NCBI GenBank assembly: GCA_963969365.1
Contig: OZ017748.1
Coordinates: 682,001-746,000, forward strand
Length of the DNA stretch: 64,000 bases
DNA from: Asterochloris sp. CNOR1
Lineage: Eukaryota; Chlorophyta; Trebouxiophyceae; Trebouxiales; Trebouxiaceae
Direction: 5' to 3'
Positions within the stretch are counted from its first letter, which is position 1; the number at the start of each line of letters is the position of its first letter. Below the pieces are notes generated by a model. It was not told the DNA's origin and did not search any database. It saw nothing but the letters and a program-made list of their open reading frames with translations. Made by a program: the position numbers and the translations under genes. Below, piece by piece: positions 28,750-50,900 of this stretch.

Positions 28750-31700
28750 CTAGAGGAATGTTCCTGTGTCTATTCCTGGGGAGTTCATGTTGTCCAGGAC
28801 AGCTGGCGCATTGGGCAGCAGGATGAGTGCAGAGACGATGGCGGCTGCAATGACCAGCCCTCGTCTTGACTCTGCCAGACTGACTTGATCCTGCAGGCAT
28901 GATAAACTCTTTTAAGACAACCATAGCCTGCCAACCAAGAGGCGAGTTGTGTGCAGATACAGCTCTGTGACAGGCTCACACGCGTGACAAAGCCATCACA
29001 GCAGAACAGAAGAAAGCTTGCCAGCCGAGAGGCAAGTTGTGCGCAAGTGCAGTCCTGTGACCAGGGCTCCCTGCAGCTCTATGCTGAGGACTTGAAGTAC
29101 TCCCTTCAGACTGGGCTGAAGTTGACCCGGTTCTCCAGCGCAGAGCTGTTCATGGTCTTGGCTGTGGCCAGACTCATGCATGAACAGCCCTGTGCTAGCT
29201 TGACACCAGGCGCTGACCTGGACATTGTTCTCAGGGTCTCGTTGGCAGAGGAGCACAAAGAGGCCAAAGGGCAGGGCCAGGTTGCTGCCGAGGAAGCCGA
29301 GGCCCAGGCCCACATATGTGAAGAAGGACGTAATGGACAGCGCCTTCTGCCCGAAGGTGGCCTGCATGGCAGGGCAGCGGTGCTGGGACCATGCTCAGGG
29401 GGGTGCGCAGCAGTGCAGGGGCAGCAGCAGCACTGTGGGGGATCCTGCAGGCAGGTGGAGAAAAACAGGAATGGGTGCAGGCGGCTGACAAGGTGGTGGA
29501 CAGTGCCTTCAGCTAAAGGCTGAATGAGGGGATGCAAGCCAGCCCCCCCTGTGGCCAGCGCAGAGCCAGCAGGAGCACAGCGTCGGCCTGCAGGGCATTC
29601 ACGAGGATGACCATGATTTCAGGCGGTGAACTCAAGGTGGTGGACACCAGATTTTGCCTGAAGGTGACCTGCAGGGGAGTGCAGGAGTGGAATGAGCGTC
29701 CTCATGGGGCAGCAGGGCAGCAATAACGCAGTGAGGATTCTGCAGGGCATTGAAGAGAGCACCAACGAGTTCAGGCGGTGAACGAGGTGCTGGAGATATC
29801 TTCTACGTAAAGGTGACTTGCAAGGGAGTGCAGCAGTGATGTGAGCATGTTCAGCGCAGAGGCAGCTGGCCACAGTGGGGGCCCTGCAGGGCAGAGAAGA
29901 CCAGGGATGGGTTCAGGCAGTGGAGATGTGATGGGATGTGGCTTTCTGCCCAGATGTGATCCGCACGGCAGTGCAACAGGACCAGGGCGCAGTGCACGGG
30001 TGGTGCAAAGCCAGCACAAGATTGTGAGGTGAGACAGGAAACGCACCCTGCTGGCATCTGCCCCATGCAAGAGGCAGCATGGATCGCCATGGGCAAGACC
30101 CCTGCAGGCCTTGTTGTGCTTTTTGCAAGAGCCATGTGCACGTTCTGCTGTCCTTGCCCACAGCTTGAACCTCACTGCAATATTTACCAGAGGCCCATCT
30201 GCTTGCATCTTGCAACACCCTGCCACTGGCCATCTCTTTTACTTGGGATGTCACATAAGTTGATTCCGCTCAGGGCGCAGCCAAACCCCACCTGCACCAT
30301 GCGGCCGCCGTCCACCCGCCCCACTGGCAGGCAGTTGAGTGCTGTGGACACCAGGCCGCACCAGCCCCCAATGAGCAGGGGGTGCACCAGCACCTGGGTG
30401 CTGCCGCGCACGGTCTCCGTGCCCAGCACTGTGCTGGCCACCTTGCCCAGCAGCAGACTGCCCTGAAACAGCTGGCTGGGGACAGGCACCAGGTCGCTCT
30501 GCAGGGGCGGCAGGCACACAAAGCCTCAGCAAATGTATGGTGGTTTGCTGGAGGGGTTGAGGGAATCTTCAGCAGATTGGTGGAATCACCACAGGCACTG
30601 CCGTGTAGTTGAGCGTGAGGGATCCAGGCTGGCTTGCATGGGATGCTCAGCCGCCAGGCGCTCACGAATGCTGGATGACATGCTGCAGATCCCCCAGCAG
30701 AGGGCCCCTCTGAGGTAAAAGTCGCATGCTGCTGACAGGAGGCAACACATCCTCAGTGCAAGGACTCGCAGATCTCTGGCGCAGCGCGCTGCTTGTAGAA
30801 GAACGCATGACCTCAGTTGAAGGCACAGACCCCTGGCAATGGGCCCCCTGTGACAAATGCTGCTGACAGGAGAGCCTAGCCTCATCATCCAGACACAGAC
30901 CACTGAAAATGGCCCCCTGTGCCAGATGCCACATGCTGGTGACAGCAGGGGGCACGGTTGGAGCTGTGCCCCCACCGCTGTCTGCGGAGGCTCACCCGGG
31001 GGACGTCAGCTCCTGTCGACCACGCGAGGCCCACAGCAAACAGGGCGATGGACACGGCAGCCGCCGAGAAGATGCCGGCCCCCGAGATGTCAAACATGTC
31101 CCTATTGTTGCGCAGAAGGCACTTGAACTGCGTGATGGCTCCGAAGGAGCCTATCTGGTTGTTGGGGATGAAGAAACTGGGGCCCAATTCAACCTGCAGC
31201 AGTTGAGGGGCTCCCCATTGCATCTGTTGACGCGCCGCTGCTTGCAGAGGGCCTCTCGTAGGCGCTGAGAAGGATCCACGCTGCTTCCCACGCATTGGAG
31301 GGGCTAACCTTGCATGTTCTGCCAGGCTGCTGCTTGCAGGCCCTGTGTTGTGAAGCACAAGCATGCTGGTCTCTGCAGAGAATCTCGCTGCAGGGCAACT
31401 TCGAAGCGTCCAGCCAGACCCTGGAGCTCAGGCCTCTGCTTGCAACAATACTTGAGCTGGCAGCTGTAACAGATTGCACTGGCGTGGCCGCCTTGAGCCC
31501 ACCTTGCGCAGCCAGGCCACCACCCTGTGCCCGAGCTCGTGGGAGGCCTGTGTGGCAATCACAGCTGCTGTGACGGGGACTGCGCTCATGAAGAGCGGGG
31601 CGGGGTCAAAGTTGGCCAACCCCGGTGGCAGCACCTGGGGGTCATAGTTCTCTGGCTGCAAGAGCCAGGCTATCGTCTCCTGCAGGCAGCAGAGGGCGGG

Positions 31701-35032: not shown

Positions 35033-38000
35033 ATGAAGCGTATCGACTTTGTGGAGGCCCAGTTTGGCGAGGTCAGACCTGAGACACCAGCAGGCACCAA
35101 CATCGTGGTGCTCAGCGGCGTCCTGCCAGGCGGGAGAGCTATTGCAGGGGCAGGCACCATGCCACAAGCTGCAAAACAGGAGCTTTTCAGAAGGGAGGAC
35201 CTCAGGATGCAGTGGCAGTCCACTCACAAGATGGTGCGCTGCATGCACCCTGCCAGGCTGGCTGCCCTGCCCATCAACCAAGCTGTGTCTGCATTGTGGG
35301 CCCAGGCGGAGGCTTAGCAGAGCAGATGTAGCGCTTTTGGCTGCTGCCGCTTCTGCTGCTTCTTGTTGCTGCATGGCTAGGGCCCTGGCTCTGCCCTGAC
35401 CAGTGCTACAAGGCTGCTGCCTCTCCTCCCTGGCACAGCACCAGAGGCAGCTGCTGCATGTTAGGTGCCAAATGTGCATTTGGGAAGGCGGCGTCGATCT
35501 TCTCAGCAGAAAGACAGTTACACAATTTTTGCATAGCATGGTGCACATTGCCCAGGATGCTGGTCATGCGCCCTTGATTCCATTGGCTTGTGCCCTTGCT
35601 GCCTGTTGGTGCCCACCCCATGTTTGCCTGCCGCCTCAACCCTGCCTTTCCTGCCTCTTGCAGGGCCCTGGCCTGCAGAACCTGGCCAACACCTGCTTCA
35701 TGAACTCAGTGCTTCAGTGCCTAACCCACACACCCCCACTGGCAGAGGCTTTGCTGGCCAAGGACATCAAAGGGCACCGCAACGGGATCAATGGACGGGC
35801 CTGGGACGCACTTTCAATGACGCAGCAGCATGTGCGCAAGGCACTGCTGCAGCATGCGAGTTACATGACGCCCACGTCCCATGCAAGCACCCTTCAGCAC
35901 ATATCCAAAAGGTAAGCACTGGGCTGCATTCAGCAGCCATTTAGAGGCAGCATGCCTGCATCCTTGGCTCATGCGGCCAGGGCATCTCTTCTGCATCCGG
36001 GGCGTATGGCACTGTTGGCGTGCTCCATTCTTGCATCCTGCTGGCAGCTGTGCTCCTGCTTGACAGGCACAGCCACCGTCTGGCTAGACCTGATGAGTCG
36101 TGTACGTGAGAGGCTCAACAATGCTGCTGACCTAATCAGGCAGCCCTGTCAAATGCTCTTGCTGGTGCACCACATCACCCGTCCTGAGGTAGCTCACAGG
36201 CATTACACAGCAGTCCACTAGCTGCAACCAGCCAGCTGTTCAAGAGGATACTTCTTTTTCAATTTTCTCTGCCCAAAGGCCCTCATTTTGCCCGACCGAC
36301 TGCTGGCTCTGCACTGCTGCAGCTTGGGAAAGGGACGCCAAAAGGCTGCCAACAATGCAACATGCTTAGGCAGCTGCATGAAGCTCAGGCAGCTGTGTAA
36401 AGCCTTTGTGTGTCTCTCCACTCCCCAATCAAACCCTGGCTGTGCCCTGTGCTACAGCTTCAGGAAGGGGCGTCAAGAGGATGCCCACGAGTATCTGGTA
36501 GCCCTGCTGGATGCGATGCATGAGGCACAGGTGGCAGGTGTCCAGCCCCGGCCCCCCACAGATGTGGCACAGACCTCCCTCATCTATAGTATCTTTGCCG
36601 GCAGGATACGCAGCCAGGTAAGCACGTTTGTCAACCCTGGCCCAACTTAGGTACTGCACAGACCTTCCTCATCTCCAGTATACTGGCCGGCAGAGTTTGT
36701 AGCCAGGTGATCAGATTTGCAATGAGTGGTGGGAAATCACTTGTGCCTGCACCATCAATACTTATCCTTTGCAGCACAGCCTGGCACACAGCTGCCTGAT
36801 GGCTGCTTTTGCCAGCTCATTGATCCCTGTGCTGCATCGCTGCCCTTCAGCAGCCTGCAATCTGCAGCAACCCTTGTTGCGATCAGCCTGCCTGCTTCAC
36901 AAGGGTTCAGAGCGCCACGGATCCTAAAGTAAGAGGCTGTGAATGCCCATGCCTAGCTGAGCCTGACTCTGGTCACCTGCAGGTCAAGTGTGTGCAGTGT
37001 GGCCACGAGTCCAACACCCACCAGGCCTTCCTGGACCTCAGCCTGGACATTCGGCGAGAGAAAAGCGTGCGCAATGCGCTGCAGGTGAATGCATGCAGCG
37101 TATGGCAGGCTGCTCTCTCAGTTGCAAGCCCTGGTCAGATTCTGGCAGCCAGCTTGTGACATGCATGGCGAGCATGTGCGATGCATGTTTTGCAGGCCAG
37201 GCAGGTCTGCCACTTGAAGACACTGGGAGTGCATGGGTAAAGGGGTCTGTCCTCATAGCCCTGCTGGCAGACCCAAGTCCACGTGCTGCTGCCCCCTTTG
37301 TCAGTTGTTCCAGAGGTCAGGCTCATCCAAGGCCAGATCCCTCTTGCAATGTGCAGCACACGTCTTCCACTCCACTAGCACCGCATCGTGAGCGTGGAGT
37401 GCTCCTGCCTGCAGCGCTTTGTGGGCGTGGAGTACTTGGATGGCACCAACAAGTACAAGTGCCCCAAGCACAACCAGAAGGTCCGCGCGGCCAAGCAGAT
37501 GGCCATCGAGCAGGCGCCCAACGTGCTCGTCCTGCAGCTCAAGCGCTTTGAGTTTTCTGCCTTTGGGCACAAGATCTCTGAGATGGTGAGCAAGCGCTTT
37601 GAGTCTTCCACCTTTGGACATGAAATTTCTAAGATGATGAGCTCTGATTTGTTGGCTCATTGCCAGCGGCTGCGCAGCTACATTGCAGGCAGCCACCTTG
37701 ATATGAGCTGGCTTGCTGCACTGGCCCTGCAGGCAGATTGTGCACATTGCCCACACTTGGCAAGCCTTTCTGCTACAGGTGCAGTACCCCCTGGAGCTGG
37801 ATCTGGCCCCCTTCATGGTGAAGCGCCATGGGCCCTCCATCATGTACGATCTGTACGGCGTGCTGGTGCACCTTGGGCACTCGGTGCACTCTGGGCACTA
37901 CTACTGCTACATCAAGGGGCCCAACGGCCTGTGGTACAAGATGGATGACACTGTGGTCAGCCAGGTGGGCCTGTCTGACAACGGGCTGCATGCATCAGCA

Positions 38001-41000
38001 GTGCTGCTAGCGTTTGGCCTCCTGCGGCCGTCAGGTGACCCCCACCAGAGAAGCAGCCAGCCTTGCCTCCATGACTTGCCTGCCTGCCCGGCTTCCCTGC
38101 AGGTGGCTCTGGCCCACATAGCCGACACCCTGTTCTTCTCAGCAGAGCAGCAGCCAGCCTGCCTTGCAGACCTGTACTTCTCTGTAGAATAGCAGCCAGC
38201 CTGCCTCGCGTCTCCATCTGTCACCTGCCCAGCTCCCCTGCAGGTGGCTGAGAGGCAGGCGCTGGCCCAGAGGGCCTACATCCTGTTCTACATCCGGCAG
38301 GAGCACCGTGGCCCTGCTGGGCCAGCCCAGCCACCGACGCCAGGAGGTGGCACAGGCCTGCACGCGAACCAGCCGCGGGTGCACCAGCGCCCCATCGGGC
38401 CCCAGACCCAGGCCGAGGCCCAGCAGGCAGCACACCTGCAGCCAGTGCAGCCTGGGCAGATGGCGCGGCCCAAGGCGCAGACTGTGCCAGGCTTCAAGTT
38501 GGGCGCGGCCCCGCTGCGTGCCCAGCAGGTACCTGCTGCCGCCGGTCAGGCTGCTGCTGAAAACGGCGTGGCGCAGCCACAAGCTGCCGCTGCTGCCGCC
38601 CACGTGCAGGGTATGGCAGCCCAGCGGCAGCCGGACCAGCAGCCGGCTGCCAGGTTGGGCATGCTGCGGTCCAATCCTGCCATTGGGAAGGGGCACTCTG
38701 GCTTGGTCCAGCAGCAGGCAGGGCAAAAGCGCAAGGCTGAGCAGCCTGCAGGGGCATTGGGGGCAGGCACTGCGCGAGGGGCTCAGCTCTTTGCCGCCAA
38801 GAAGCAGAAAGGTCAGCCTGGCATGTCGCTGCTGTTTTGAGCTGCCCTTGCCTGCACCAGCACATGAGCAAGGGGTAGACTCAGGGCTCTTCCTGTGCAC
38901 TGCTCCTGGACATTTCTTGGTGCACGGTGCCGTGCTGGGACGCTGGCCGTCCATATATTGGCCTGCTGGACTCTGCAGCTAATGTAGCCCTGCACATGTG
39001 GGTGATAGTTCAAGCACCTGGCATGCGGCTGCAACCTGTCAACCGCCCCTCCTTTCCTGCTGGGTCTGTAGGCTGACCCACCTCAGGCTGCTGACTCGTG
39101 ACCCCCTCTCCTCTGTGGCGCAGCTCCTGCTGCTGCGGGGCGCAGTGCCCCTTTGGCGGCTGCTGCAGGGCCCACAGCTGCCCCCAGCCAGGCACAGCCT
39201 GCCCCCGGTGCTGGAGGGTCGGCCAAGCGCCAGGGGAGGTCTGCTGCCATGGAGGAGACCTATCGGGCCAAGGGGCATGCAGCGCTTGCTGCTGCTGAGG
39301 TGCCGCGAGAGGGGCAGCCCAGCAGCAGCGCTGCAGGGACTGCCGCTGCGGCTGCCGAAACTGGCGGCCGAGGCAGAGCTGCTGAGGCAGGCAGCGGTGC
39401 TGCAAGGCCTGCAGGGGCCAGTCCACCCAGGTGAGTTGGGCTGCAGGTCTCATTATATGGACTGCAGAGCAGAGGCCTGCTGCATGTGCCCTCAGTGTGA
39501 ATGTCTTGATGCGGCAAGCATTGGGCAGCATGTGCATGCTCTATTGGTACGTGGGTGCACTGCATGGCTACCTGGCAGCAAGGGACAATGAAGGGCGGCT
39601 TTGGGCAGCCTTACGTGCTCTGTTTGTTACTGATCTTGCTCTGCATGGCTAGGCAGCAGCGAGGAGTGATGAAGCGCACTGGGCACTGACCCTCATGAAA
39701 GATGTGCACTAGGGCCTAGAAAACCCGCTATCTGACCTCTGCTGTCACCCACTTTGCACAAGCAGCACCTGACTTGGCTGCTTCTGTACCTGGTTTGGCT
39801 GCTTCTGGACATGTATCCCAACATGCTGCATGCTGGGGCCATTCATGACTGTGACATGCACGGCACCAGCGGCTCAAACTTGCTTGCTCACTGTGCAGGA
39901 TACCCCTGTCGCCCTCTGCTGGCAGCCCTGTTGTCCCTGTGAGGGCAATGACTGGCTCTCCTCTACACCTGTCACCTGGCCAGGCAAGCAATAAGTGCCA
40001 CACCCTGTCCTGGCTGCCAAGCTGCTTTCTTGAGGTATTGATGGCCCCGTCAGCCCCTGCCTGCTGTCTGCCCTTACCTTGCATCATCATCTCTGCATGC
40101 AGTACTGCACGGCCAGCCCCCCAGCAGAGCTTCTAGGGAGGTGGCTCACGGTGCCCTGCACCAGCTGCAGATCCCCGGCATGACTATTCAGAGCCTTACC
40201 CCGAGCCTTCCCTGTGCTGTCTGTGGGTCTGTGGGTCTCTGGGAGCGATCCCCTGGGAGCAAGAGCCTGCGTCAGCTGCACATCCCCAGCAAGACCGCTC
40301 AGGGCCTGTCCCCGAGCCTGGTCTGCGATCATGTGGCCACACGTGAGCCTTGCACCGCCTCCCTGAAAGGAGGAGCATTCCTGAAATCAGTGGTCCTGTG
40401 CTGCCTGCAGGTCCCCGGGAGCAAGAGCCATCGGCGCCTGCAGGCCCGCGTGTCTCAGCATGTGCAGACAGCCCAGCAGGCCTTTGGGGGCAGCCCCCTG
40501 CGCCCCACTCGGGGGGCCCAGGCTTCCCCTTCGCCTTCCAGGGAGCCTGTAGCAAGGGCCCTGGCCGCGCGTTTTGACGACTCCGTTGACAATCATGGGG
40601 CAGGTTGGTCAAACACAGGAGGTCGCTGCTGCACCCGCCCAGCGGATAGCAAAGCAGCTGCCAACAATTGTTCAGCACTGATGCATCAGATGGCAAAGCA
40701 GATCGCAGCCACACAGCCAGAGAGTTGGAAAAAAGTGGGCAGCTTCAACGTCACTGGCCAGCAGGCGTACCTTGGTGTCCAGACCATCCAGCCTGGGAGA
40801 AGCCTGCTGGTGCAAGTGCCTCAGCCTATTGTGCATACAAGGGGCTGACACCGCTGCAGGGTAGCAGGCTATTGCATCCAGCATGCCCAGCTGATATCCA
40901 AGCACTCCTGCCGTGCTGAATGCTGACAGTGCAGCCTCCTTCTGCAGGGGGAGTGGGGGCAGCCACCACTGGCAGCGCGCTGGAGGCTGCTGGGCAGAGG

Positions 41001-42542
41001 GCCCTGCATGAGGAGGCAGTGCATGCGCCGGCCTGGCCTCCAAAGTTGCCTGCTGGCCCACCTGCGGGCGTTCAGAGTCGGACCCCAACTGTGCCTAAGC
41101 AGCCGCCAGCTGCCACCAACCATGATGCACAGGCGCCAGCTGCAGCCCCAGGGGCCGGGAGGGCTGTCCCCGTCTCACCCCCTGCTGCTGCCGCTGCACG
41201 TGCAGACTCAGCAGGCACTGCCAGGGCAGCGCCTGAGCCCAGCTGTAAACAGAGTCCCACCTCAGACCAGTGTGCCCCAAAGGGCACTGTACCAACATTA
41301 GCCCACCCAGCTCAGAAGCATAGGCAGCAGCAGCAGGCCGCACAAGGGGCCCCTGGCGGCCCAGGGCCTGCTGGCCTCCACCCCTGGGCACCTGCCAGCA
41401 AGCGAGGCAGGCATGAGGTGGGCAATGGAGTCAGCGCCTGCTTTGCACACAGCGGCCCAAGCGCAAGTGCTTCGGGGCAGCAGCCAGGGAGCAAGGCAGG
41501 GGGCCAGCGGCTGGAGGCTGTGCCACCAGGGGGTGTGCAGGCCTTCCTGCGCCAGCAAGGGAACGGCGCTGTGCAGCATTGGGATGATGTCGACCCGGAG
41601 CTGGCCAGGCAGAGCGTCCACCTGACTGGGTGAGTGCCTGGGGGCTGTGCAGGTTCCTTTGCTGTGCCAGCCCGCCTGAACTGGTCTCAAGGCCCCTGGC
41701 ACTCATCCGCCGCTCATTGCAGAGAAGAACAAAGCTGGCCACAACCTGACTGGATGAGGGCATGGATGCAGTGAAGCTTGGCTGCACCAGCCTGCCTGAA
41801 CTGGTCATAGGGACCCGGCTCTGTCATGCACCAGGTGCTGGGTGCCGAGGCGTCTCTCAGCAGCCGTGCGGCACTGGCAACAGCCTGCAGCTGCCAAGTG
41901 GTCGCACTGCAGCTGGCATGGATCTTTCAGATGTCCTTACAAAAACACCTTGACAGCATGCCTGGCTGTCGTGCTCCTGCTGCAGTTGGGCGCCTGCCCA
42001 CTTGACACATGCACCTTCCCTTGCTGCTGTCTGCTGCTGCTGCTGCTGCTGCTATGATGAGGCGGGGGCTCTTTCAGCTGCTGGGAATGCAGGCCAGACC
42101 CAGCCTCCAGCCGTCCTGCTGTGCTGCCGCACACCTGATCCTCATCACCTCTGTGCCTGCTACAAACCAGAGTTGACCCCAAGCGCTTCACTGCATGCCC
42201 GCTGCTCACTTGACAAGTACACCTGTACTCGATCTGCTCATACCCTGTTACAGGCCAGACCTGCCGCAGGCCAGGATGAGTGGGAAGGGAAGTATGATGG
42301 GGGGGCAGCAGGAAGGCAACCTCATCATGCCCTTCTGCAGGCCGAATACTGCCCCCAGGCGCCAGGATGAGTGGGATGAGGAGTATGACAGGGGCCGCAC
42401 CAAAAGGGTCAAGACTCATGGCAGGCAGGGCGCTGATGCCTGGGACCCGCATGGCAACGCTTTTCAGCGCAGCTTCAACCAGCGCCAGAGACTGCAGAAC
42501 GGACACTCTCACAGCAACGGGCACCCCTACAAGAAGCGCTGA
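35033..42542 (+). CDS. USP36: Ubiquitin-specific protease, USP36-like (nucleolar type)
   Basis: Cysteine deubiquitinase of the C19 family. Exons 35033-35233, 35664-35911, 36458-36617, 36983-37084, 37379-37585, 37779-37964, 38244-38811, 39124-39430, 40411-40603, 40948-41629, 42341-42542. Cys box GPGLQNLANTCFMNSVLQCL, RQEDAHEYLVALLDAM, zinc ribbon VKCVQCGHES with YKCPKH, LVLQLKRFEFSAFGHKI, and His box VHSGHYYCYIKGPNGLWYKM with QRAYILFYIRQ are all intact. A long Ala/Pro/Gln-rich disordered tail follows, then WDDVDPEL and a last exon DEWDEEYDRGRTKRVKTHG ending PYKKR. That acidic-basic ending matches the USP36/UBP23 C-terminus, which in animals is linked to nucleolar location. The junction between the exons ending 39430 and starting 40411 is out of phase, so one small exon there was missed. 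Four introns hold decayed copies of neighbouring exon ends. Confidence 0.93.
36654..36717 (+). repeat. Decayed copy of USP exon 3 end and its donor
   Basis: The stretch repeats 36566-36629 at about 80% identity, offset 88 bases, including the splice junction: AGCCAGGTAAGCACGTTT in the true copy, AGCCAGGTGATCAGATTT in the intronic copy. Confidence 0.85.
37592..37642 (+). repeat. Decayed copy of USP exon 5 end and its donor
   Basis: An exact 51-base tandem offset from 37541-37591. Both copies start AAGCGCTTTGAGT and end GAT(G)GTGAGC or GATGATGAGC. The second copy has lost the donor GT. Its reading frame is still open and would insert KRFESSTFGHEISKM if retained. Confidence 0.9.
38081..38145 (+). 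repeat. Decayed copy of USP exon 7 acceptor and start
   Basis: CCCTGCAGGTGGCT, then a CTGGCCCA core and ACCCTGTTCT, repeats 38234-38290 (CCCTGCAGGTGGCT, CTGGCCCA, ATCCTGTTCT). The copy keeps an intact-looking acceptor about 140 bases upstream of the true one. Confidence 0.8.
42031..42053. repeat. (CTG)n microsatellite
   Basis: Nearly eight perfect CTG units in the last USP intron. Confidence 0.9.
42248..42305 (+). repeat. Decayed copy of the last USP exon start
   Basis: CAGGCCAGACCTGCC then GCCAGGATGAGTGGGA-G-GAGTATGA repeats 42338-42392 (CAGGCCGAATACTGCC, then GCCAGGATGAGTGGGATGAG). The offset is about 85 bases; the acceptor-like CAG is kept. Confidence 0.85.
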
Positions 42543-47920: not shown

Positions 47921-50900
47921 GCCTTTTCATTTGGCGGGTCCTCTGGGGGATTTGGGCAGCCGCAGAGCAACCCGTTCTCATTTGGAAGCGGCAGCACACC
48001 AACATTTGGGGCCTCAGGCACCCCTCCAGCCTCTCCTTTTGGAGCCAGCAGCACACCTGCGTTCGGTGCCTCCACCCCCAGCTTTGGTGGATTTGGGGCA
48101 TCCAGCAGTGGGGGTTTTGGCGCAGCATCACCTGCAAGTAAGCGATTCAGAGACAGGGGAAGGCCTGAGGCTACAGGCAGTGTGTCTGCTCCATCCGTGG
48201 CCTTGACTAAAATTCAGAGAATTCCTTCACAGCCACCGGCCCATAATACGCATTACAAGCTCTGCAAGCTGGCTGCATGACACCAATGCAAAGCGCAAGC
48301 CGGAGAGCTAAGCTACAATTTGGTGTGGTACCGTGCAGGCCCTTTTGGGGCGCCAAGCTCAAATGCCTTCAGCTTTGGAGCCAGTCCCAGCCCCTTTGGA
48401 GCTCCCAGCAGTGCCCCCAGTCTCTTTGGGGCCTCCTCTGCGGCCTTTGGCGCTCCAGCTGCCTCAGGCGGCCTCTTCGGGTCAGTCCCTGAAACCTGGG
48501 CCAGACAACCTCTTTCACTGCATGCACCTTGAGGGCCTTGGCCTGCATGGGGGTATCTCTCTTTCTCTGTCTAGCAAGGGCAGGAGGCTGACCAGCTGGC
48601 CTCCGTCTCTGACTCAGCTGCCTGCTCACACGTTAATAGCACCTGTCAGACAAAGCTTTCAGGCAGGCAACACAGCACACAGTTTCCCTGCATTCCTCTC
48701 CCATATGCCCCCTGCAGGCAGGCGCAGCCCCAGGCGCAGCAGCAGCAGCAGCTGACCCTCTTCGGCCAGCCCCAGCAGCAGCTGCAGCAGTACCACCCCC
48801 AACAGGTGCACCCCCACCAGCAGCAGGCGGTGGTGGCCTATGGCAATGAGCTGTCCTCGGGGGTGGCCCCCGCCACGCAAGAGGTTCTGGGGCTCATGCA
48901 CTCCTGGACGCCTGGCGCTCCCCAGTACCAGCGCTTTGTGGGGCTGCTGCTGCAGGCTCTCCCACCAGGGTATGAGCTGGAGCAAGTGCCTAAGCCTCCA
49001 GGTGAGACACCTGTGGACACACTTGCCCTGGCAGCCAGGGCGTGTGTTGAGGTGGAATGAGGTCTGGGTGGCTCAGCTCTTGGTGGGCTGAGTCCAAGGG
49101 AGGAGCTGGATGCGGTGTCCCGCCACATGAGGCATGCAGGAGCCGTGGGGCTGCTGCTGCAGGCTCAGCCCCCAGGGTATGAGCTTCAGCAGGTTCGCAA
49201 GCCCTCAGGTGGGATAGCAGTGGAATGCTGGACCATGCTGGCTGAGGCAGACATGGCGTGTGTGTTGGCGCAGCCTCAGCTCTTTGCCATGATGTCTGCT
49301 GTGCGTTACTGCTGTTTGCTGTTGGTGTCACGCGCTGGCCCCTTTGCCTGCAGAGATTGACAGCCTTCAGTGGCGGGACGCCAAGGAGCAGTGCATGAGG
49401 CTGAGCCACCTGGAGCGCCTGATGCCGGTGCCCGTGCTGGGTTTCCAGGGACTGCTGCAGCGCAAGGAGGCACAGGTGGGCTGGTGCGGACAGCAAAGCA
49501 CAGCAGGCATGAAATGAGCTGTTGTAGATGCGCACAAGAGGTAGCAGGCGAAGCAGCACTGGTGAGGCCTTGATGCAGGCCTGCTGCATGCAGCTGTGGT
49601 GCTGCTTGAGCGACAATGTGTCTATTTCTTGTCAGGCCGCCTCTGTCATGTGTGGCCAACGGGCCTCCTCCATAGGCATTGGTCTGTGAGGGTGTCTCTG
49701 TGAGAGGAGTTCTGCAAGCCGTTCAGGCAGGGCTCCTGGGCATCTGGCGGTGGCAAGGCTGCTGTGGGGTGCACCTTGGTGCGTGGGCAGCCCGTTGCCA
49801 TCGTGCTTGCTTGCCGAGCCTGGCAAAGCTCATGCGCTTTGTCCGGCAGCTGGCTGACGCCTCTGATGCGCCGTTGCCACCCGCATGCAGGACCTAGCCC
49901 TGAAGGAGCAGCAGGAGCGCCTGCAGAACGCTGCTGGCATTGCAGAAACCCTGAAGCGCCAGCACAAGGTGGTTGCACAGGAGGGCTTGGCTCGGGTGAG
50001 AGTTCCGGGCTCTGCTGCTCTGCTGCCAGCTGCCAGCACTTGTAGTCCTGCTGGCTGGTCACCCATGGCCATACCAATGCTGCCACCGCTGATGGCACAG
50101 GACTTGCTTCTCAGCTTGGCCCTGCAATGTACATCTGCATGCAACACAACTTGCTTGATGTGAGCCTCCCCTGGCCACCAGCATCTGTACGTGATGAGTG
50201 TGACGGAGCGCCCATCTGCCCACCCCAGTCCGCGCCAGAGGCAGCCAAATGGCCCTCTACCTCTGTCACATCTTCATGAGGAGTGCACATCCATGAGCCC
50301 CCTACTGCCTGCAGATCAAGCAGCAGCACCAGGACCTGGCTTTCCGCCTGATCAAGGTGCAGCGCCATGTGGATGCCCTGCTGGGGCACGTTGCAGTCGA
50401 GCTGGGGCAGAAGGACCCTCGTGAGGGCGCCGTCGTGGAGCAGCTTGGGGCCATGCTGGGGCAGGCCGAGAGCATACTGGGGCCCGGTGAAGCAGGTGCG
50501 CTGTGACATCCCAACCACTCTCTGCTGAGGGCCATACTGGGGAAGTGCATGTGATAGATGCTGCTCAGGGACGGGACTCCAGATGGGCATGCCTGGTAGC
50601 ATGTATGCTGCTGGTGAAGTGCATTCCTGTGACAGTGGACTCTTGCGTCGTTTGCATGCGACAGCAAGCGTCTGAGATCAGCCCAAGGCTTGCGGATGTT
50701 GCGTGGCGTATATTGCATGATGGGTTGCAGGCAGGGTGGGCAAAAAGCAAAGGAAAGAACCCCACCGCAGCTCATGCACCCGACTTCAAAGTGTGAGCCG
50801 GGCACAGCACACCTTGCACACCAGAAGCACCAACACCTGCTTTTTGAGACGAGGGCGCCTGATGATTGCCTCCTGCCCATGTGCAGCTGGTCTTGCCAGA

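Follow-up and report, generated by a model that had tools for sequence, protein, structure and literature searches.

Copies of predicted splice junctions within adjoining introns of a USP36-type gene and of a genome sample from Asterochloris sp. CNOR1

The stretch of DNA analysed here (the window) comprises 64,000 nucleotides (nt) of the green alga Asterochloris sp. CNOR1 (C3:682001-746000, contig OZ017748.1) in a genome of 56.4 Mb and 21 contigs, and it contains a gene in which several introns carry a diverged copy of the neighbouring exon edge together with its splice site. Judged by its predicted protein, this gene is a USP36-type ubiquitin hydrolase. The UCH domain is complete and continuous in the spliced protein (PF00443 positions 2-254 of 254, E 1.7e-65), and the best structure match is USP36 (PDB 8bs9, E 3.3e-77), aligned in a single stretch with gaps of only 1-3 residues that spans the exon 2-7 junctions. 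Because the spliced protein aligns to USP36 across them in one stretch, the boundaries of exons 2-7 are backed by homology; by the same alignment, exon 5 begins at 37415 rather than at an earlier AG near 37380. For the exons after exon 7, a hidden Markov model (HMM) gene model is the sole basis. When compared to the genome, segment 36566-38000 matched itself only. The exons referred to below are as follows, in window coordinates.

35664..35911, + strand: exon 2, start of the catalytic domain; HMM model, with a Pfam UCH match for the exon (E 1.5e-12)
36458..36617, + strand: exon 3, both edges of which have intron copies; HMM model, spliced protein aligned to 8bs9
37415..37585, + strand: exon 5; HMM model, start placed by homology (NALQ/RFVGVEYLDG versus RALELFVKADVLSG in USP36)
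38244..38811, + strand: exon 7; HMM model, start continuing the USP36 alignment
42341..42542, + strand: last exon; HMM model only

The initial annotation had described four intron copies of an adjoining exon edge with its splice site in this gene (36654-36717, 37592-37642, 38081-38145 and 42248-42305), and all four are present essentially at those places. Each of 22 junctions of the gene was compared with 500 dinucleotide shuffles of the same intron; the four copies beat every shuffle of their own intron, and P was at or below 0.004 at 6 of the 22 junctions, these four included. The copies and their sources are listed below.

36632..36719, + strand: copy of exon 3 end and donor; source 36543-36630, 72% identity over 88 nt, spacing 89; score 32, shuffle maximum 14
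37591..37642, + strand: copy of exon 5 end and donor; source 37540-37591, 81% over 52 nt, exact 51-nt tandem; score 22, shuffle maximum 15
38083..38145, + strand: copy of exon 7 start and acceptor; source from 38224, with 38083-38108 matching 38224-38249 at 92% over 26 nt, spacing 141; score 21, shuffle maximum 20
42239..42303, + strand: copy of last exon start and acceptor; source 42326-42394, core 42270-42303 matching 42361-42394 at 85% over 34 nt, spacing 91; score 29, shuffle maximum 17
36315..36353, + strand: copy of exon 3 start and acceptor, absent from the initial annotation; source 36450-36488; score 21, shuffle maximum 16, P=0.002
40251..40280, + strand: copy of the exon start at 40411, likewise newly found; source 40413-40442, 80% over 30 nt, spacing 162; score 18, equal to the shuffle maximum of 18, P=0.004
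41744..41816, + strand: weaker copy of the exon end at 41629 and the following intron, also newly found; source 41620-41696, 78% and 80%, spacing 124 and 120; P=0.038
37378..37403, + strand: weak copy of exon 5 start; source 37411-37436, 81% over 26 nt, spacing 33; P=0.389, the scanned stretch having cut the copy
38171..38209, + strand: nested second, shorter duplication in the intron before exon 7; source 38129-38167, 85% over 39 nt, spacing 42

The copy of the exon 5 end is an exact tandem with a spacing of 51, as had been proposed, and its donor GT has turned to AT. The weakest of the four is that of the exon 7 start, whose score lies barely above the shuffle maximum because its best gapless core covers just 26 nt. 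Besides the two weaker cases in the list, the other 14 junctions gave P values from 0.046 to 0.93. Local repetition extends beyond this gene: across the window, 24 direct local repeats without gaps scored at least 18, versus 0, 0 and 0 in three block shuffles. Similarity no stronger than in shuffled sequence, named at the outset as what would refute the observation, is thus not what was seen.

The frequency of such copies was determined in about 320 kb, some 0.6% of this one genome, made up of the window, 200 kb of contig C1 and the surroundings of other USP-family genes at 18 loci. Junctions were predicted with a purpose-written self-training HMM gene finder, some of whose gene models are fragments. 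Among 438 distinct predicted introns, 134 were dropped as weak or long and 304 passed filters that took account of the coding score of the flanks and the lengths of exon and intron. The first or last 50 nt of each exon were aligned to the exon's own intron and a score of at least 16 was counted as a copy; thresholds were picked in the course of the analysis, and identical ones were applied to the controls. Copies of the exon's own edge were present at 44/608 junctions (25 donor and 19 acceptor) versus 0.73 expected from foreign introns of equal length; 44/304 introns, about one in seven, carry one. All lie in direct orientation, with no inverted copy (reverse complement, score at least 16) at any of the 608 junctions, and the far edges of exons of at least 120 nt were copied in the intron in 0/229 and 0/233 cases. 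Spacings were mostly about 50-250 nt, with a median of 122.5 nt. Local copies between parts of an intron are mainly direct too (58 direct versus 4 inverted among 1967 intron 40-mers from 304 introns). The idea that the copies reflect a recurrent process, visible at varied levels of decay, is therefore borne out by these counts. The gene itself is not special: its cases in the tested set amount to 4/18 junctions (P=0.037, uncorrected), the gene-wise maximum is as expected (P=0.83), and 28 of the 55 gene models contain copies, without overdispersion (P=0.77). The USP36-type gene is a typical member of a wider pattern.

Since the junctions are predicted, and 134/438 introns were removed before counting, the copies could in principle be a product of the gene finder, that is, internal protein repeats in exons that were ended wrongly. 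This is quite unlikely. The foreign-intron, inverted and far-edge controls are all near zero, and mismatches in the copies are equal over codon positions. In addition, the main Pfam domain is matched in one stretch that lacks the copies both by the USP36 protein and by a phosphoribosyltransferase-like protein, and in two stretches by a chaperonin.

When considering the fate of the copies, mismatches by codon position were 0.209, 0.183 and 0.219 (48 copies). For comparison, one pair of USP-family paralogues, L029 (contig C10 near 0.58 Mb) and L025 (C3 near 2.64 Mb), shows differences of 0.102, 0.086 and 0.252 at the first, second and third codon positions and of 0.252 in introns, along with 38 indels; as both of the last values are 0.252, third positions and introns in this pair diverge at the same rate. 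The third-position ratio of the copies was 1.18 (95% confidence interval 0.92-1.48, 35 copies), and the interval just takes in 1.46, the ratio derived from that pair for an unconstrained copy. There is thus no sign of coding constraint, and the copies decay like non-coding DNA. Transitions and transversions stood at 149:133 in the copies and 125:115 in intron-intron repeats, an ordinary mutation spectrum, on which hypermutation at the birth of a copy was rejected. The L029 and L025 introns, about 25% diverged, seemingly contain the same old acceptor copy, which is probably older than the split of the two genes because both carry what looks like the same copy.

A further possibility is that the copies are working alternative splice sites, selected for the isoforms that they allow. 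The splice motif is kept in many of them, with GT in 11/19 donor copies and AG in 8/14 acceptor copies; 9/19 donor copies score above the 5th percentile of real donors; and the spacing is divisible by three in 22/48 (P=0.048), which hints weakly at a greater tolerance of frame-neutral events. Against such a role, the third-position ratio is not above the value for an unconstrained copy, the copy of the exon 5 end has no GT, and the reading frame is open up to the copied site in only 5/22 of the copies with in-frame spacing versus 7.3 expected from other introns. We regard selection for isoforms as improbable.

Introns with a copy have a median length of 450 nt versus 302.5 nt for those without, and length minus spacing in the list of hits has a median of 312.5 nt, as expected if each event added one spacing. 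The length difference alone is not proof, since longer introns also give more room for copies. The initial annotation had cited local duplication as a route to either intron gain or intron lengthening, and it is the second that these data favour. In the Rogers model, introns arise by tandem duplication of AGGT-containing exon segments, a mechanism documented elsewhere (PMC3443670, PMC4974935, PMC2891723) and one that would, like our observations, leave exon-derived sequence inside introns. The model predicts the upstream exon end to be copied at the 3' end of the intron and the downstream exon start at its 5' end, on a diagonal equal to the intron length. This diagonal scored at least 14 in 0/304 introns (control 0), and at a score of 10 it differed little from the control (5 versus 2, and 4 versus 3). 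The copies observed sit well inside longer introns. With the classical signature in 0/304 introns, we conclude that existing introns were lengthened and not created, and creation of these introns by the Rogers route is very improbable.

The explanation that we think likely, although with considerable room for doubt given that the junctions are predicted, is that small local duplications copy the neighbourhood of a splice junction into the adjoining intron, error-prone break repair being the probable source. A duplication in direct orientation, with a spacing of mostly about 50-250 nt, would take approximately the last or first 50 nt of an exon with its splice motif. The copy nearest the exon body would continue to be spliced, leaving the mRNA unchanged, a use of the outer site suggested by the conserved proteins, and the other copy would be trapped in the intron, where it would decay free of coding constraint and add about one spacing to intron length. 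A duplication across a junction may in this way be harmless as long as splicing keeps to the outer site, with the inner copy then free to decay. As to the source, error-prone repair of staggered double-strand breaks could give rise to both tandem and non-tandem local duplications. In rice, according to a review (PMC7407515), the outcomes of inaccurate break repair include duplications of sequence lying within 200 bp of the break, whether tandem, partially tandem or non-tandem, and break repair is proposed here because the direct-only orientation, the spacing of about 50-250 nt and the mixture of contiguous and spaced cases match those outcomes. Break repair would account for the presence of the copies, their orientation, their decay and the longer introns.

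Both contiguous and spaced modes occur. A contiguous tandem unit predicts that the part of the intron after the real site resembles the part after the copied site. The two clearest pairs of the USP36-type gene (exon 3 end and exon 5 end) are contiguous, with gaps of 1 and -1 nt, which counts against a non-tandem reading; the description of the copies as tandem holds for these two but fails for most of the spaced cases elsewhere. Plain contiguous tandem duplication, uniform along genes, could accordingly be the whole process, the junction copies being survivors whose intron half has decayed past recognition. Besides the two pairs, this is favoured by the youngest repeats (identity at least 0.95), contiguous in 4/5, with 4/10 at 0.90-0.95 identity, and by the 15 listed strongest intron-intron repeats (score at least 25), of which 12 are contiguous while a similar spacer is present in the remaining 3. 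The best case on C1 (94%) is likewise a triple tandem of period 75, which scored p 0.07 at spacing 150, and one case (spacing 95) is followed by a 40-nt array. Near the donor, moreover, interior probes approach the junction rate when adjacent copies are counted. On the other side stand the junction enrichment described below and the stretch between original and copy, which reached p<0.05 for similarity in 4/26 testable pairs (median p 0.53), a set from which the two clearest USP36 pairs were omitted, their stretch being too short, when contiguous tandems predict 44-76% by simulation and 96% in a paralogous-intron control based on one gene pair; the power of the test was 0.96 at the expected age. 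Plain tandem duplication as the sole process appears doubtful to us.

The spacers themselves do not look like a repeated element: in the sampled sequence, 29 spacers gave short matches only and no shared family. The copies might also have come from spliced, cDNA-like sequence, but this was rejected, as what follows the copied junction is similar to the next exon in 1/36 cases (p<0.05). When lineage-specific insertions were sought in the L029/L025 pair, four gaps of at least 20 nt were found, of which two fall at the ends of the comparison, and none duplicates its flank. When paralogues of three copy-bearing stretches were sought in the genome DNA, each stretch matched itself, and the only other hits were two short ones, about 60 and 80 bases long.

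The copies are concentrated at the junctions. With 40-nt donor probes and targets 60-400 nt into the intron, hits numbered 0/223 for probes at -100 to -60 relative to the junction, 10/256 at -60 to -20, 21/257 at -40 to 0, 15/258 at -20 to +20, 4/258 at 0 to +40 and 14/258 at +20 to +60, the last of which adjoins the target so that contiguous repeats are counted. Acceptor probes of the same length peaked around the junction (25/256) and gave 0/256 at 40-80 nt into the exon. Relative to one interior probe per intron with matched targets, copies 60-260 nt away were 5.0- and 5.6-fold more frequent at junctions (21/257 and 23/256 versus a mean of 1.6%); the excess was 2.9- and 3.5-fold with adjacent targets (19/257 and 23/256 versus 2.5% and 2.6%) and, for gaps of 20-80 nt between probe and target, 3.8- to 6.2-fold. 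Of this, slower decay of the exon part accounts for a factor of 1.04 to 1.25, and of 1.65 at most if exons are taken as frozen.

Several of these results weigh against break repair acting evenly along genes as a complete account. A process uniform along the gene does not predict a junction excess of 2.9- to 6.2-fold, with unequal decay contributing at most 1.65. Our own expectation for break-repair duplications was that their position would be independent of splicing, and the positions found depart from it. The scarcity of similar intervening stretches (4/26), set against what contiguous tandems predict, has to be counted here as well. The excess is also smaller near the donor, where interior probes starting 26-106 nt into the intron gave 4.5-5.5% versus 8.0% (23/286) at the exon edge with adjacent copies counted; because these probes approach the exon-edge rate, short tandem repeats inside introns must be common too. 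Break repair does not by itself explain the junction excess: either breaks are commoner at junctions, through chromatin, transcription or splicing, or events there are better retained.

A splice-like motif alone was considered as an attractor and rejected, with copies at 3/122 unused intronic donor-like sites, 54/2042 random intron positions and 21/257 real donors. Unused acceptor-like sites at first seemed enriched (12/107), but 8 of the 12 are copies of the real acceptor, and non-copy sites in introns without such a copy gave 2/64. A stronger interpretation of the excess is that splice junctions are targeted by local copying. On this view a junction-centred tract, comprising some 50 nt of exon and the splice motif, would be placed in the intron in direct orientation, as far as a few hundred nt away and mostly leaving out the intervening stretch, at three to six times the rate of other tracts in introns. 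Spaced repeats in the interior of introns, similar in their spacer in 6/35 (median p 0.23), count against a junction-specific mechanism, and we put targeting forward tentatively, as possible rather than likely. If true, it would imply junction-tied breakage or an RNA- or splicing-linked template, and splicing itself would be a source of intron growth.

Other repeats were noted in the sampled sequence. The strongest ungapped local repeat of the window (48938-49224; 80 nt, 81%, spacing 207) is a repeated coding segment (LLLQALPPGYELEQV / LLLQAQPPGYELQQV) in a predicted gene that we take to be FG-repeat nucleoporin-like. On the minus strand at window 29362-30291, a predicted 930-nt intron of a presumably membrane peptidase-like gene has repeats spaced by about 150, 300 and 450 nt that reach and include the real acceptor. 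In C1:600001-650000, a predicted 1303-nt intron on the minus strand repeats its own acceptor with the exon start at least four times, at irregular intervals that put the copies 388, 483, 554 and 849 nt away from the real acceptor. In the same region, the model of predicted gene C1_2 number 5 joins what we take to be a stearoyl-ACP desaturase-like protein to a reverse-transcriptase-like stretch, probably a retroelement remnant in or beside the gene. Finally, the chlorophyll a/b-binding family has 31 matches in the genome, and genes are intron-rich, which very likely marks a photosynthetic eukaryote.

Among known systems, the natural short duplications attributed to patch-mediated double-strand break repair in rice (Vaughn and Bennetzen 2014, as cited in PMC7407515) are alike in being local, copied from within about 200 bp. 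They include tandem and non-tandem cases; here, contiguous pairs in the USP36-type gene stand beside spacers with no detected similarity in 22/26 pairs. They also share the direct orientation over a short distance, here 44 direct versus 0 inverted among 608 junctions. The concentration at splice junctions seen here is not mentioned in the passages of PMC7407515 at hand. Intron gain by tandem duplication, exemplified by vertebrate ATP2A1 and others (PMC3443670, PMC4974935), likewise involves local duplication of splice motifs, but it makes a new intron, whereas in our sample an existing intron lengthens and its ends lack a duplicate of the opposite exon edge (0/304). The nearest known case in these sources is the potato RdRp gene (PMC4974935), where the duplicated sequence also crosses an existing intron-exon junction; there a new intron resulted in one gene, with its donor from a formerly exonic segment, whereas the events described here are frequent and leave a putatively unused copy. 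Earlier work cited in these sources includes Rogers 1989, Hellsten 2011 and Gao and Lynch 2009. Introners (PMC9860276) share the recurrence of intron change but are elements that copy themselves into many genes, whereas each copy here matches its own neighbouring exon. Genome-wide intron lengthening by junction duplication was not described among the titles and abstract openings listed from open-licence literature on intron gain, duplication, break repair, algal introns and intron expansion.

The growth of introns is usually ascribed to transposons and drift. With fossils of junction duplication in about one seventh of the tested introns, roughly datable and accompanied by controls, the contribution of this route to intron length becomes measurable, and the trapped copies could provide ready-made cryptic splice sites.

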